A DNA stretch of 64,000 bases from Thiohalobacter sp. IOR34. Lineage in GTDB: Bacteria; Pseudomonadota; Gammaproteobacteria; Thiohalobacterales; Thiohalobacteraceae. The notes below the pieces were generated by a model. The model saw only the letters and a program-made list of their open reading frames with translations. It was not told the DNA's origin and searched no databases. The stretch spans positions 2,391,438 through 2,455,437 of the forward strand of contig NZ_CP128988.1 of NCBI RefSeq assembly GCF_030406045.1, written 5' to 3'. Shown in pieces: positions 29,998 to 58,494 of this stretch (positions within the stretch are counted from its first letter, which is position 1; each line of letters starts with the position of its first letter). Position numbers and translations under genes: made by a program.

Positions 29998-30250
29998 TAA
30001 CCCGCATATTGCATGAAGGATTCGAGTTTCAGGGCGAATCTGGCCAAGCAGTTTGTTCGATCGACCGCCGAAGCATAGCCGTAGCTAGGGTTCAAGGGCG
30101 ATCGGGCGAAATGCGACGCCAGATTTGGTCTGAACTCGAACAGGCACAAACTGTAGCAGGGCACAATTGCTCGCATAGGGAATCACTGCCTTGATATATA
30201 CCGGAAAAATTACGCTTTCAAGGCCGCCTTCGTGCAATATGCGGGATAAC
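29998..30250 (+). repeat. Dispersed 250-bp structured repeat, copy 1 (subfamily A)
   Basis: Termini are inverted: TAACCCGCATATTGCATGAAGG at left (22 bases) corresponds to the reverse of the right end at 30228-30250 with two mismatches. Inside lies the family core, with ATTCGAGTTTCAGGGCGAAT, CATAGCCGTAGCTAG and a matching inverted arm. It fills the space between the divergent Nudix and metallopeptidase genes. It belongs with copy 4 at 41996, sharing a right part that other copies lack. Confidence 0.9.
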
Positions 30251-34320: not shown

Positions 34321-34573
34321 CTAGCCCGGATATTGCGCCAAGGATTCGATTCTCAGGCCGGAGCTGGCAAAGCAGCTTGGCCGATCGCCCGCAGAAGCAT
34401 AGCTGTAGCTATGGTTCAAGGGGGATCGACCAGGATGCGCAGCCAGATGCGTCCTGAAATCGAATAGGCACAACCTGTACCCCGCCAGGAGGGCCCATTT
34501 ACGAGCCTCCCGACCTTGTATACCAGCCTGTACTCCAATCATACGGACCTCCTTGGTGCACTATCCGGGCTAG
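34321..34573 (+). repeat. Dispersed 250-bp structured repeat, copy 2, inside the pst operon
   Basis: Full-length copy with ends CTAGCCCGGATATTGCGCC and its inverse at the right (CACTATCCGGGCTAG). It fills the spacer between pstC and pstA; the pstC stop codon TAG (34570-34572) lies inside its right terminus, while the pstA ribosome-binding site touches its left terminus. The core hairpin GGCCGATC/GATCGACC and CATAGC/GCTATG is seen. Confidence 0.93.
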
Positions 34574-41647: not shown

Positions 41648-41704
41648 GCCAGTCCCGCAGGCGTGGGCAGCCGGCCGCGGCAAATGGGGCGGGCGATGCC
41701 CGCC

Positions 41705-41775
41705 CGATCGCGGCCTGGAGGCCGCTCCTACCAGAGTGCCGCCATGCCCCGTAGGAGCGGCCTCCAGGCCGCGAT
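41705..41775. repeat. REP pair
   Basis: Two exact inverted units, GATCGCGGCCTGGAGGCCGC and its reverse, with TCCTAC heads facing each other over about 20 bases. It lies between two fragments of the dispersed repeat. Confidence 0.9.
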
Positions 41776-41830
41776 CCCCGGCGGGTCCAGCCACGCCATC
41801 ATCCGGGGCCGGATGCAATATCCGGGCTAG

Positions 41831-41991
41831 CAGCCTGTCGGACTTAGGCGATCGTAGCGAGCAGGGTGGGAGAACGAGAACGAATCTTCACGATTTCGAG
41901 GCGCATAGTGAGCACTACGCAACGAGAAATCGGGGAGATTCGGGCCGCTCTCCCACCCGCGCAGTAGATCAGTCCTGAGTCCGACAGGCTG
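41831..41991. mobile_element. 161-bp MITE flanked by CTAG
   Basis: Inverted ends CAGCCTGTCGGACT (14 bases exact, 17 of 18 overall) bound a 161-bp non-coding element, and CTAG stands on both sides (41827-41830 and 41992-41995), consistent with a 4-bp target duplication of the YTAR kind used by IS5-type elements. The inside has further symmetry (GGTGGGAGA with CTCTCCCACC). It is inserted exactly between two copies of the dispersed repeat. Confidence 0.85.
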
Positions 41992-41995
41992 CTAG

Positions 41996-42235
41996 CTAGC
42001 CCGCACATAGCACGAAGGCGGCCTTGCATGCGTAATTTTTCCGGTATTCATCAAGGCAGTAATTCCCTGTGCCCTGTTACGGTTTGTGCCCATTCGAGTT
42101 CAGACCAAATCTGGCGTCGCATTCTGCCCGATCGCCCTTGAACCCTAGCTACGGCGATGCTTCGGCGGGCGATCGAACAGACTGCTTGGCCAGATTCGCC
42201 CTGAAACTCGAATCCTTCGCGCAATATGCAGGCTA
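41996..42235 (-). repeat. Dispersed structured repeat, copy 4 (subfamily A)
   Basis: A full copy, inverted relative to copy 1, which it resembles throughout, including TAATTTTTCCGGTAT and CAAGGCAGTAATTCCCT. The end GCAATATGCAGGCTAG supplies the stop codon TAG (42233-42235) of the porin gene. Confidence 0.9.
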
Positions 42236-43393
42236 GAACACGTACTGCCCCTGGATGAACAGTTCATCCTCGTCACTGCCCTTGACGCCCTTCAGGTTCT
42301 CACCCATGCGATAGCTGATCTGCAGCTTGACGTCATGCTTGTGCAGGAACCAGTTGGCACCGATCGAGCTGCGGGTCCAGGCATCGGCATAGTTGTCTGC
42401 ATCCTGCGACTGGTAGCCTGCAACCAGCTCGACCCCGATGGGCATGAACAGGTAACCGCCCTCGATGGACCAATTCTCCAGGTCGGTGCTGCCGTTGCGG
42501 AACATGCCGCCGGTGAAGGCCGCATCCACGGTATCCACGCTGAACCTGTTGTACTCGGCATCGACCGAGAAGCCCTGGCTGCGGAAGGCGGCACTGATCT
42601 CAAAGCCGGTGACACGGTCGATGTCCGCCTTGCTGGTGCTGGTGGAACTGCCGGCCGTGGTGTAGCTGTTGTTGTCGTCGTCGTTGTTCCAGACAAAGGC
42701 AGCCACACCGATGGTTGCCTTTGTCTCGCCCTTGAAGTCACCCTGGGAGAACTTGGTGTAACCGAAGGGATGGAAGTCGACCCGGCCGCCGTAGATCCAG
42801 CCCTCGTTGAAATCGCTGTTGCGATTGACCGGCGTGTCGAAGTCCAGCTTGCCGGCATCGGGATCGATGGCGGCAGAGGCAAAGGATGCGCCCCAGGTCA
42901 GGGTCTTGTCCGCATTATGACCCGTGAGGTGCACACCGACGTTGCGGTCCGGCGTGCCGTAGTCATGGTCACCCACGAAGCTGCGTTCGACCAGCTGCTG
43001 GTATTTGGACGAGGTCAGGAACTCGCGGGAGAAGGGGAAGTTGGCATTGCCCAGCGTCAGCTTCATGTTGTCGAAGCCCTTGTACTGAAAATAGGCATCC
43101 TTGATGGCGACCTCGTTGTCGTCCACGGCCTTGCCCAGATCGAACTGGAACTTGCCCTTCCAGTCCTTGTGCAGGCTGCCCTCGATATAGGGACGCAGGC
43201 GACGGAAGAACACCTCGTCGGTTGTGCTACCGCTGTCGGGATCGGCCTGATGGTACTGCAACTGGATGCGGCCGCCCAGCTTCACGTACTTCTCGTCCTT
43301 CTTGTAGACGGTGATGCCACCGGCTGCAGCCGAACCCGCCAGGGTTCCGGCCAGGATGACAGAAATGCACTGGGCAAGGGTGTGCGTGCGCAT
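42233..43393 (-). CDS. Phosphate/polyphosphate-selective porin, OprP/OprO family
   Basis: This 386-residue outer membrane protein has a signal peptide (residues 1-24, AGTLAGSAAAGG) and ends in phenylalanine (QGQYVF), the BAM signal. The start of the barrel, KYVKLGGRIQLQYHQADPD, and DEVFFRRLRPYIEG are typical of OprP/OprO. With six phased Pho half-sites upstream and pstS as neighbour it most likely imports phosphate or polyphosphate. The terminal TAG belongs to repeat copy 4. Confidence 0.9.
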   Translation of the reverse strand: MRTHTLAQCISVILAGTLAGSAAAGGITVYKKDEKYVKLGGRIQLQYHQADPDSGSTTDEVFFRRLRPYIEGSLHKDWKGKFQFDLGKAVDDNEVAIKDAYFQYKGFDNMKLTLGNANFPFSREFLTSSKYQQLVERSFVGDHDYGTPDRNVGVHLTGHNADKTLTWGASFASAAIDPDAGKLDFDTPVNRNSDFNEGWIYGGRVDFHPFGYTKFSQGDFKGETKATIGVAAFVWNNDDDNNSYTTAGSSTSTSKADIDRVTGFEISAAFRSQGFSVDAEYNRFSVDTVDAAFTGGMFRNGSTDLENWSIEGGYLFMPIGVELVAGYQSQDADNYADAWTRSSIGANWFLHKHDVKLQISYRMGENLKGVKGSDEDELFIQGQYVF

Positions 43394-46103: not shown

Positions 46104-46356
46104 CTAACCCGGATATTGCACCAAGGCGGCCCGCATGATCGGAGTGCGGACTGACATACAAGGCCGGGAGGCTCGCAAATGGTTCCTCACTGCGGGATAC
46201 AGTTTGTGCCTATTCGATCTCAGAACGCATCTGGCTGCGCATCCTGGCCGATCGCCCTTGAACCATAGCTACGGCTATGCTTCCGCGGACGATCGGCCAA
46301 CCTGCTTTGCCAGCTCCGCCCTGAGAATCGAATCCTTGGTGCAATATCCGGGCTAG
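46104..46356 (-). repeat. Dispersed structured repeat, copy 5, inside the phoB-phoR operon
   Basis: Full-length copy between phoB and phoR. Ends are TAACCCGGATATTGCACC and its inverse. Stems: TGGCCGATCG with CGATCGGCCA, CATAGC with GCTATG, ATTCGAT with ATCGAAT and TCTGGC with GCCAG(C). The phoB stop codon TAG (46353-46355) is part of its terminus. Confidence 0.93.
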
Positions 46357-47915: not shown

Positions 47916-47978
47916 ATCGGCATCCTCGCAAGGAGGCCGGGGCAACCCGGCCGTTTATTATTAACCCGGCATCACTAG

Positions 47979-49299
47979 TGTCCGGAAAAACCGTTCTTCT
48001 TTGTCGCTAACTCATTGTTAATACGAGAGTAATATGCCATTTTCGCCTGTCACCGACTTGAACTGGCCATTGGGCCAGGGGCACGCTTTAGCCCGGTATC
48101 CCGGGTCGGAGCGGTCAAGTCATGTACACAGGCAAACTCGTGTTCGCACAGGCGATGGATCATCTGCCTTTGCACACCCTTCGGCGCTGCATCCAGCGCT
48201 ACAACGGCAACCGCCACGTAAAACGCTTCAGCTGCCAGGATCAGTACCGGTGCATGGCCTTCGCACAACTCACCTACCGGGAGAGCCTGCGCGATATAGA
48301 GGCCTGCCTCAATGCCCAAAGCAACAAGCTCTACCACATGGGTATTCGCTCTCGCGTAGCCCGCAGTACCCTGGCCGAGGCCAACGAAAAACGCGACTGG
48401 CGGATCTACGCAGACTTTGCCCAGTCGCTGATCCAAATCGCACGACGGCTTTATGCCGACGAGGAACTCGGGCTCGAACTCGACAACACGGTCTACGCGC
48501 TCGACGCCACCACCATCGACCTTTGCCTGTCGGTCTTTCCCTGGGCTCGCTTCCGGCGAACCAGGGCGGCTGTCAAGCTGCATACCCTGCTCGATCTACG
48601 AGGCAATATCCCCTCGTTTATCCATATCTCCGATGGAAAACTCCACGATGTCAACGTGTTCGACCTGCTATTGCCAGAGCCCGGAGCCTTCTACGTCATG
48701 GACCGCGGCTATACAGACTTCGAGCGTCTCCATCAGCTCCACCATGCGTCGGCTTTTTTCGTCATTCGCGCCAAGTCCAACCTGAAATTCCGTCGGATCT
48801 ACTCTCATCCCGTGGACAAGAACTCCGGCCTGCGTTGCGACCAAACCGTAGCGCTGACCGGGTTCTATACCGCCCAGTACTATCCCGACCGACTACGCCG
48901 GATCAAATATTACGATGCCGAGACCGACAAGCGGTTGGTCTTTCTGACCAACAACTTCAGCATTCCGGCGATCACTATCACCGAGCTTTATCGCTATCGC
49001 TGGCAGGTGGAGCTGTTCTTCAAATGGATCAAGCAGCACCTGCGAATCAAGTCGTTTTTCGGTACCTCGGAGAATGCCGTCAAGACTCAGGTCTGGATCG
49101 CCGTCTCCGTCTATGTGCTGGTCGCCATCATCAAGAAGCGTCTCAATATCCAGGCCAGCCTCTACTCGATACTACAGATTCTGAGTGTGACCGCTTTCGA
49201 AACAACATCAATAGATCAACTACTTACAAGATGCGACCAAGCAATAAGCGATGCAAATTTCAGTAACCAGTTGAATCTATTTGACTAATATTCCGGACA
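47979..49299 (+). mobile_element. IS4-family insertion sequence (1321 bp)
   Basis: Ends are TGTCCGGAA, inverted at the right (TTCCGGACA), and CTAG flanks both ends (47975-47978 and 49300-49303). It carries one intact transposase gene. The target was the centre of a palindrome, TCACTAGTGA, in the spacer between the second DUF1538 gene and the P-II-like gene. Because CTAG is its own complement, the boundary could also be placed two bases further out. Confidence 0.9.
48122..49288 (+). CDS. IS4-family transposase
   Basis: The 388-residue DDE transposase has an N-terminal DUF4372-type region (about 1-75), first aspartate in VYALDATTIDLCLS, second in YVMDRGYTDFERL, and the Y-x2-R-x3-E-x6-K signature in YRYRWQVELFFKWIKQHL. 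All catalytic residues are present and the frame is open, so it may be active. GC content seems lower towards the 3' end than in the host genes. Confidence 0.93.
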   Translation: MYTGKLVFAQAMDHLPLHTLRRCIQRYNGNRHVKRFSCQDQYRCMAFAQLTYRESLRDIEACLNAQSNKLYHMGIRSRVARSTLAEANEKRDWRIYADFAQSLIQIARRLYADEELGLELDNTVYALDATTIDLCLSVFPWARFRRTRAAVKLHTLLDLRGNIPSFIHISDGKLHDVNVFDLLLPEPGAFYVMDRGYTDFERLHQLHHASAFFVIRAKSNLKFRRIYSHPVDKNSGLRCDQTVALTGFYTAQYYPDRLRRIKYYDAETDKRLVFLTNNFSIPAITITELYRYRWQVELFFKWIKQHLRIKSFFGTSENAVKTQVWIAVSVYVLVAIIKKRLNIQASLYSILQILSVTAFETTSIDQLLTRCDQAISDANFSNQLNLFD

Positions 49300-49333
49300 C
49301 TAGTGACCCGGCATATTTGGTTGCCGGGTTAAT

Positions 49334-57987: not shown

Positions 57988-58241
57988 CTAGCCCGAATAT
58001 GGCAGCAAGGATTCGATTCTCAGGGCGGAGCTGGCAAAGCAACTTGGCCGATCGCCCGCAGAAGCATAGCCGTCGCTATGGTTCAAGGGGGATCGGCCGA
58101 GATGCGCAGCCAGATACGTTCTGAAATCGAATAGGCACAAAGTGTACTCCACCACGAGGGCCCATTTGCGAGCCACCCGGCCTTGTATAACCAGCCTGCA
58201 CTCCGATCATGCGCGCCGCCTTGGTGCAATATCCGGGCTAG
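57988..58241 (+). repeat. Dispersed structured repeat, copy 8
   Basis: Full copy in the orientation of copy 2: ATTCGATTCTCAGGGCGGAG, GGCCGATC, CATAGC/GCTATG, GATCGGCC and AAATCGAATAGG follow in order. A scrap of another terminus (CATCCGGGCTAG) precedes it, and copy 9 follows directly, joined at GCTAGCTAGC. Confidence 0.93.
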
Positions 58242-58494
58242 CTAGCCCGGATATTACACCAAGGATTCGATGCTCAGGGCGAGGCTGGCAAAGCAGCTTG
58301 GGTGATCGTCCGAAAAGTCATAGCCGTTGCTATGGCTTGAGGAGGATCACCCAGGATGCGCAGCCAGAGTCGGCCTGACATCGAATAGGCACAAACTGTA
58401 ACCCGCCGTGAGGAACCATTTGCGAGCCTCCACGCCTTGTATGTCAGTCTGCACTCCGATCATGCGCGCCGCCTTGGTGCAATATCCGGGCTAG
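58242..58494 (+). repeat. Dispersed structured repeat, copy 9
   Basis: Full copy, head to tail with copy 8. The core stem is GGGTGATC with GATCACCC where copy 8 has GGCCGATC with GATCGGCC, that is two compensated pairs. A third is GATG/CATC in place of GATT/AATC in the outer stem. The right end supplies the pilE stop codon. Confidence 0.93.

Follow-up and report, generated by a model that had tools for sequence, protein, structure and literature searches.

The interval at positions 41808-42236 of the window (the whole 64,000-bp stretch of DNA analysed, 2391438-2455437 of the single-contig, 2,961,281-bp genome of Thiohalobacter sp. IOR34) is best explained as two hairpin transposons, both non-autonomous, one nested at the edge of the other. 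According to this explanation, which is built on sequence comparison and to which we assign as a whole a probability of roughly 0.68, the 161-bp MITE of this nest would have been moved by an IS1182-family transposase, and its folded strand would probably have been kept because folding lineages go on spreading.

From left to right, the interval contains a degraded terminus of an R-type element (41808-41826, minus strand, four mismatches to CCCGSATATTGCACSAAGG; R-type is our name for a class of 250-bp repeats), a CTAG that is both the edge of this terminus and the left target-site duplication of the MITE (41827-41830), the 161-bp hairpin MITE with ends CAGCCTGTCGGACT (41831-41991, plus strand, that of our covariance model R1) and its right duplication (CTAG, 41992-41995). 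There follow another CTAG, the left duplication of R-type copy 4 (41996-41999), copy 4 itself, a member of a second class of structured MITEs (42000-42232, plus strand), and the right duplication of that copy (CTAG, 42233-42236). The nested insertion proposed in a first-pass annotation of this DNA, with a CTAG-flanked MITE at the junction of a repeat scrap and copy 4, is thereby borne out.

The MITE, its target site and its probable parent

The 14-bp end of the MITE occurs 26+23 = 49 times in its own genome, while the reversed pattern used as a control gave 0+0 matches, so the end is not a product of chance. A DNA search of the same genome, with 40 of 66 candidates scored, yielded at least 42 copies in matching sense, of which 18 reach ≥98% identity. 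The element encodes no transposase: it is 161 bp long and the longest overlapping ORF, of 80 aa, starts outside it. Well-preserved copies (19) are flanked by CTAG/CTAG in 16 cases and by TTAG/TTAG, TTAA/TTAA and CTGG/CTAG in one case each, and these 4-bp flanks are a true target duplication. None of the 19 lies inside a called ORF, and the copies show no preferred orientation towards the genes beside them (6/4/4/4, one undetermined; n is small). Looking for a target palindrome beyond CTAG, we found the first outer position complementary in 10/15 own sites and 13/36 sites of other genomes, and no clear signal further out. At three loci (L098 3542-3577, L099 3000-3035 and L100 2964-2980) the MITE is reduced to its first 13-17 bp (CAGCCTGTCGGAC followed by TTAG), and these remnants directly abut an R-type start or its remnant; it looks as if the hairpin had been deleted between an internal TTAG and the flanking YTAR repeat.

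CTAG is rare in this genome, as the first-pass annotation had stated. An even-step sample of 400 kb contains 132 CTAGs, 0.317 of the number expected from a maximal-order Markov model and the lowest ratio among the 16 palindromic tetramers; the window contains 26, against a shuffle mean of 98.65. The accompanying idea that these sites are concentrated at element edges was overstated. Among the sampled CTAGs, 29 stand at R-type edges and 11 at MITE edges, with five shared, which gives 35/132 at edges and leaves 97/132 at no recognised element edge. In the window, 13 coincide with R-type edges (one of these with a MITE edge as well), one is a MITE-only edge, two fall within the terminal inverted repeats (TIR) of an IS4-family element, and ten lie elsewhere, two of these within R-type copies. 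Coding DNA has 0.123 CTAG per kb and non-coding DNA 1.115, a density 9-fold higher outside called genes, with calls from a rough, home-made gene caller that placed six R-type and two MITE edges in coding DNA. An IS5-family element is a further user of CTAG in this genome, its flanks being CTAG in two copies and CTAA in one (L140, L141, L142).

The IS4-family element just mentioned (47973-49305, plus strand, 1333 bp) is a different case. Its ends are CACTAGTGTCCGG...CCGGACACTAGTG, all four copies in the genome start with CACTAGTGTCCGG and finish with its reverse complement, and each is bordered on its outer sides by an exact 9-bp duplication (ACCCGGCAT for the window copy; AAGCAGTAT, ATCGTTCTT and GCTTTTATA for the others). 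Its transposase scores 282 bits with NF033592 (cut-off 115). With CTAG inside the terminal repeat and a 9-bp duplication in 4/4 copies, we rejected this element as a user of CTAG targets; the earlier description of an IS4 element at 47979 flanked by a CTAG target did not hold.

The parent of the MITE was sought by its ends, as had been suggested. A pattern scan of named genomes gave at least 117 stretches with CTAG plus the 14-bp end. Among the matches listed there are three full elements of 1527-1544 bp, in Thiocystis, Thauera sp. 28 and Zoogloea oleivorans, with CTAG duplicated in 3/3; the scan pattern included CTAG, so that the far side alone is an unbiased test of the duplication. CTAG was not part of the pattern in the own-genome searches or in the search for end pairs 143-173 bp apart. 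All 14 end positions are common to the MITE and the elements at L182 and L231, and one Zoogloea end has one mismatch. The two transposases tested, from Thiocystis and Thauera, belong to the IS1182 family (NF033551, 373 and 356 bits, cut-off 270), and that from Thauera is 86.5% identical to ISAzo1 of Aromatoleum. In the three elements compared, MITE and full parent are alike over about 14-16 bp only. Relatives are carried by 2665 plasmid records; in nine examined out of the 18 best, 8/9 have ends with CTAG on both sides. The Methylobacter plasmid relative has the variant end GAGTCTGTCGGAC, found also on many hairpin MITEs, and a search for element ends around the Simplicispira plasmid relative found none. 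Viral contigs contain IS1182 relatives at one locus. ISAzo1-like IS1182-family elements thus share both the 14-bp ends and the CTAG target with the MITE, and IS1182-type transposases probably move the hairpin family.

No IS1182 transposase was found among the 13 PF01609 matches of the own genome: none reaches the IS1182 cut-off, the representatives are of the IS5 or IS4 family, and the remaining matches are near-identical copies of these. The IS5-family elements of this genome were rejected as parents on account of their different ends. Other end pairs above 1 kb were also discarded, two (L210, 1100 bp; L214, 1686 bp) for lack of equal flanks and one (L221, 2987 bp) as it spans two MITEs.

The hairpin class and its possible link to the R-type elements

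The 161-bp MITE is a member of a class with near-fixed length, covarying stems and kept internal-loop letters. Pairs of its ends 143-173 bp apart occur in 9/369 genomes of the taxonomic class, own included, and 16 of the 18 listed elements from other genomes measure exactly 160 bp, although 143-173 bp was permitted. When no length condition was imposed, 19 of the 40 unique end pairs of 100-260 bp among the matches listed were of 159-161 bp; other lengths include families of 114-117 bp and 191-241 bp. The 32 members collected are 52-99% alike and align nearly free of gaps, and 23 were kept after removal of close relatives. On these 23, RNAalifold draws 56 pairs, 35 of which have changed on both sides. 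Paired cells amount to 91.8%, against 74.1% in shuffles and 33-44% (maximum 43.7%) when the alignment is slid, and the covariation score is 0.469 against 0.161. By eye, three internal loops keep their letters, around TCGTAGCGAG/CGCAGTAGAT, GCGAGG.CAG/ATGG.CCGC and TTTGAGGCG/AACGAAA. The window copy folds as RNA at -98.8 kcal/mol (z -11.7) and scores 151.4 bits with R1, the covariance model built from the 23 sequences, this copy being one of them.

R1 finds matches (E ≤0.001) in 52/398 genomes of the phylum, own included, 42 of them from one family and the other ten from eight families, in 19/213 genera. The model also matches 13 of 25 named genomes that had been selected for having the MITE end, one of them weakly (Zoogloea, E 1.6e-4). 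Copies are most abundant in Endozoicomonas sp. ISHI1 (at least 118), Extensimonas vulgaris (at least 116) and Extensimonas perlucida (at least 115), followed by Deltaproteobacteria bacterium IMCC39146 (77), Marinobacterium rhizophilum (61), Nitrotoga sp. M5 (55), Thiohalomonas denitrificans (53), a Neptunomonas MAG (50), Endozoicomonas arenosclerae (38), two Halothiobacillus MAGs (29 and 11) and Modicisalibacter (3). R1 gave no match in the other 12 of the 25, including Thauera sp. 28, Geminisphaera, Prosthecobacter and Lamprocystis. Rfam has no match within the MITE at E ≤1, and a scan of eight loci at gathering thresholds returned three tRNAs only. The R-type ends and the 160-bp pattern gave 0 matches in viral contigs, and blastn with three MITE members gave 0 matches in plasmids.

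R-type elements are themselves MITEs. Their inverted ends CCCGSATATTGCACSAAGG match 228+230 times in the own genome with up to three mismatches (control 0+0). Equal 4-bp flanks border 22 of the 30 best copies (CTAG 15, TTAG 3, and ATAA, CTAA, TGAA and TTAA one each; the flanks of the remaining eight are unequal), so we regard the R-type as a MITE whose target is YTAR-like and not confined to CTAG. The statement that the 250-bp repeats end in CTAG is thus right in that they duplicate CTAG and too narrow in that they also duplicate TTAG, TTAA, CTAA, ATAA and TGAA. Besides copy 4, the window holds R-type MITEs at 30001-30245 (minus strand, flanks ATAA/ATAA, locus L083), 34325-34569 (minus, CTAG/CTAG) and 46108-46352 (plus, right-hand CTAG), and a tandem pair at 57992-58237 and 58246-58490 (both minus, each with CTAG on both sides). 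The terminus occurs in 17/369 genomes of the taxonomic class, own included; of 20 elements from other genomes, 14 measure 238-256 bp, and in 12 the two flanks are identical (CTAG, CTAA or TTAA). In an alignment of 12 members, six of them own, paired cells reach 94.1% against 82.9% in shuffles, and 34/62 pairs are doubly changed. No transposase-bearing copy was seen among the R-type loci looked at. An IS1380 parent was rejected, as PF13701 gave just four sub-cut-off matches, all to the IS4-family element.

Head-to-tail R-type copies or termini occur in the own genome at 662274-663006 (in L101) and at 584398-584800 (in L102), spaced by about 247-257 bp and by 128 bp. A second R-type subgroup, found in relatives (L303, L307, L312, L319, L324, L388, L401), has a more GC-rich hairpin with strand-unbiased wobble pairs. 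A long inverted repeat (GATCGCGGCCTGGAGGCCGCTCCTAC and its complement), which we take to be REP-like, occupies positions 41703-41779 of the window; it is present also in L095, L096, L097, L099 and L100, and at some loci is located within R-type elements.

The hairpin cores of the two classes may have a common origin. On R-type loci, R1 matches the core in 2/16 (E 1.4e-5 and 6.3e-5), the window's own R-type copies giving no match at E ≤1. The reciprocal model R2, made from the R-type core, matches 7/35 hairpin-MITE loci at E <0.01 (best 4.7e-10), 5/6 loci of the other R-type subgroup and 0/6 other palindromic MITEs at E ≤1. All nine cross-matches between R1 and R2 are on the same relative strand (p 0.004). 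Shared ancestry of the cores is therefore plausible on these models and stops short of proof, since most loci do not cross-match and hairpin models can match unrelated hairpins. The first-pass annotation had spoken of three unrelated users of CTAG: the MITE and the R-type are indeed users, the IS4-family element is not, and whether the two MITE classes are 'unrelated' is questionable, because some of their hairpin cores match each other.

Nesting at R-type edges and probable selection on the fold

Eighteen of the 19 well-preserved MITE copies adjoin an R-type terminus (≤5 mismatches) at a common tetranucleotide, the TTAG and TTAA cases included. The exception is a 91% copy (L053), and all 18 copies at ≥98% are nested. 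At the window copy, the R-type terminus is directly to the left, and on the right side a second CTAG intervenes. R-type edges make up 23/89 non-coding CTAG sites of the sample, against 18/19 MITE insertions (Fisher p about 2e-8; four MITE-only edges were left out of the 89, and the gene calls are rough). In this genome the MITE targets R-type termini and not CTAG sites in general, a preference that could partly reflect the survival of insertions. As the MITE copies are 98-100% alike and 7/18 of their partners lack a second R-type end within 420 bp, the MITE would have arrived after the R-type. Older MITE copies (L056, L057, L060, L097) abut another repeat that ends in ...GGTGTCAACAGGCCCCAGG or similar, which may be a third class of element offering targets to the MITE.

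Two other accounts of the CTAG sites have to be considered. The tetranucleotide could belong to the TIR, like that of the IS4-family element, in which case nothing would be duplicated; most copies are flanked by CTAG, and the IS4-family element proves that the pitfall is real. We consider this extremely improbable: matched direct pairs other than CTAG exist (TTAG, TTAA, CTGG, CCAG, CAAG, CGAG, CTAT), and the tetranucleotide is common to the MITE and the R-type duplication. The nesting could also follow from plain scarcity, if the MITE inserted at any YTAR/CTAG and mainly the intergenic sites at R-type edges survived selection. The higher density of CTAG outside called genes fits such an account, as does the outcome in other genomes, where a search beside the ends at 80 loci found no R-type neighbour (two spurious string matches). 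This second account is possible, if somewhat improbable in our judgement, given that R-type edges are a minor part of the pre-existing non-coding CTAG sites sampled (23/89) and nearly all of the insertions (18/19), and that insertions use TTAG and TTAA at R-type copies bordered by these tetranucleotides.

The reason why the fold is kept can be approached through its wobble pairs. For this strand test, pairs were redefined from Watson-Crick states only, which favours neither strand. G.T exceeds A.C by 182 to 80 over 61 members, by 79 to 42 over the 32 members chosen by their ends and by 61 to 34 over the 23 kept members (66 to 29 with pairs redrawn on those 23), whereas departures from their own consensus in 23 decayed own copies stand at 61 to 62. 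The difference is significant and, in the least biased sets, modest (Fisher p 0.014 for 32 members, 0.039 for the 23 kept and 0.0003 for all 61); related sequences are not independent, and the contrast sets pair states in members against departures from consensus in decayed copies. Counts guided by R1 (A1 84:21, A2 135:16, own decayed copies 65:54) agree in direction and lean to the modelled strand by construction. In E. vulgaris the ratio is 18 to 2, a biased figure since it comes from the best 60 of 116 copies; of these 60, 41 have equal flanks, CTAG in 36. The R-type alignment A4 has A.C 43 and G.T 21 as drawn, which is the same bias on the homologous strand, and the R-type subgroup A5 has no strand bias (16:11). 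Wobble pairs that are one-sided in members and unbiased in decayed copies suggest that the fold is selected in spreading lineages, and not in each resident copy or for use by the host.

Inverted repeats can self-correct, and template switching homogenises their arms without selection. The hairpin might accordingly be a neutral palindrome, derived from an ancestral inverted repeat and functionless, and the strand-unbiased decay of the own-genome copies would agree with that. We find it unlikely, because the same mismatched loops keep their letters (by eye) across sequences 52-99% alike, where arm-to-arm correction would erase them, because length stays near 160 bp, and because wobble pairs favour one strand, the homologous one being favoured in A4. 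More unlikely still, in our opinion, is that the element serves its host as RNA, with transcribed copies tuning mRNA stability and selection maintaining each fold. Such roles have been proposed for ERIC and NEMIS (PMC2229807, in the part of that article available to us), covariation is strand-specific here, and called ORFs contain 0/19 copies; against this, the 23 decayed copies show no strand bias and the orientation of this small set of copies to neighbouring genes is even. Selection through spreading thus remains the reading that we prefer.

Proposed mechanism and relation to known elements

We hypothesize that an IS1182-family transposase, not found now in the own genome, moved the MITE into palindromic YTAR sites, in most cases CTAG, which it cut and which became duplicated. 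Each insertion at an element edge remakes the CTAG target, as the first-pass annotation had pointed out; element edges would thereby become favoured intergenic targets, and here the feet of R-type hairpins would be preferred. The folded strand would probably be kept by selection because folding lineages go on spreading, the element being recognised or protected during mobility by virtue of its fold, and probably not for any service of each copy to the host. That the fold serves mobility would fit these observations. It is tempting to go further and propose that a hairpin core folded on one strand, with its covarying stems and conserved internal loops, is a module of at least two MITE classes (ends CAGCCTGTCGGACT and CCCGSATATTGCAC) needed for mobility, with an IS1182-type transposase acting on, or helped by, the folded strand and inserting at hairpin feet in CTAG-like sites, but we consider this extension doubtful.

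Bacterial MITEs are commonly seen as reduced insertion sequences that depend mainly on their ends; the hairpin class keeps length, stems and loops as well. The modest contrast between a fold kept in the class and single copies that decay without strand bias leads to a testable claim, namely that the fold is selected for spreading and not for the host. The nesting connects a preference for stem-loops or palindromes, reported for some IS1182-family members, with the arrangement of elements in a genome. In practice, the covariance model enables annotation of an abundant unlabelled repeat, with at least 115 and at least 116 copies in the two Extensimonas genomes. Searches of open-access text found no publication on IS1182, MITE and CTAG together, and searches with the terminal and loop strings, in open-access text, titles and abstract starts, found none on the element among the papers listed; the MITEs in the portions available of PMC6053426 (102 bp, unlike the present one) and PMC4853749 are others. 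Within these open-access searches, what appears to be new is the breadth of the class, its covariation and conserved loops, the contrast in strand bias between members and decayed copies, a possible connection of the two classes and the nesting at edges.

ERIC stems show compensated changes. ERIC, NEMIS/Correia and other structured MITEs resemble the hairpin class in their size of about 100-200 bp, their lack of protein and their long stem-loop transcripts; in the part of the survey available to us, most structured bacterial MITEs have TA ends and each comes from one or few genera (PMC2229807). The hairpin class differs in its CTAG sites, its IS1182-type ends, its three conserved internal loops and its distribution over nine families of one phylum sample.

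ISAzo1 and related IS1182-family elements have CTAG on both sides and ends that differ from those of the MITE at 0-3 of 14 positions; unlike the MITE they are autonomous, about 1.45-1.60 kb long as found here, and their inside is unlike that of the MITE beyond about 16 bp (three elements). For IS1272, of the same family, the section available to us proposes recognition of stem-loop targets, and insertions at R-type hairpin feet are in line with this; IS1272 however replaces the stem-loop without target-site duplication, whereas the present MITE duplicates CTAG and leaves the R-type element in place (PMC5678879). MITEPye1 of Paracoccus yeei has 159 bp, 4-bp direct repeats and 18-bp ends like those of the IS1182-family element ISPye18; it shares with the hairpin class the length, the 4-bp repeats, the IS1182-like ends, the intergenic location, the long stem-loop and the absence of an ORF, and differs in having one to three copies per chromosome and, in the part of the report available, in being described without covariation, wide family or conserved loops (PMC11578231). 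Compared by length, size of the target-site duplication and parent family only, MITEPye1 is probably a member of the hairpin class, so at least one member of this class would already be known.
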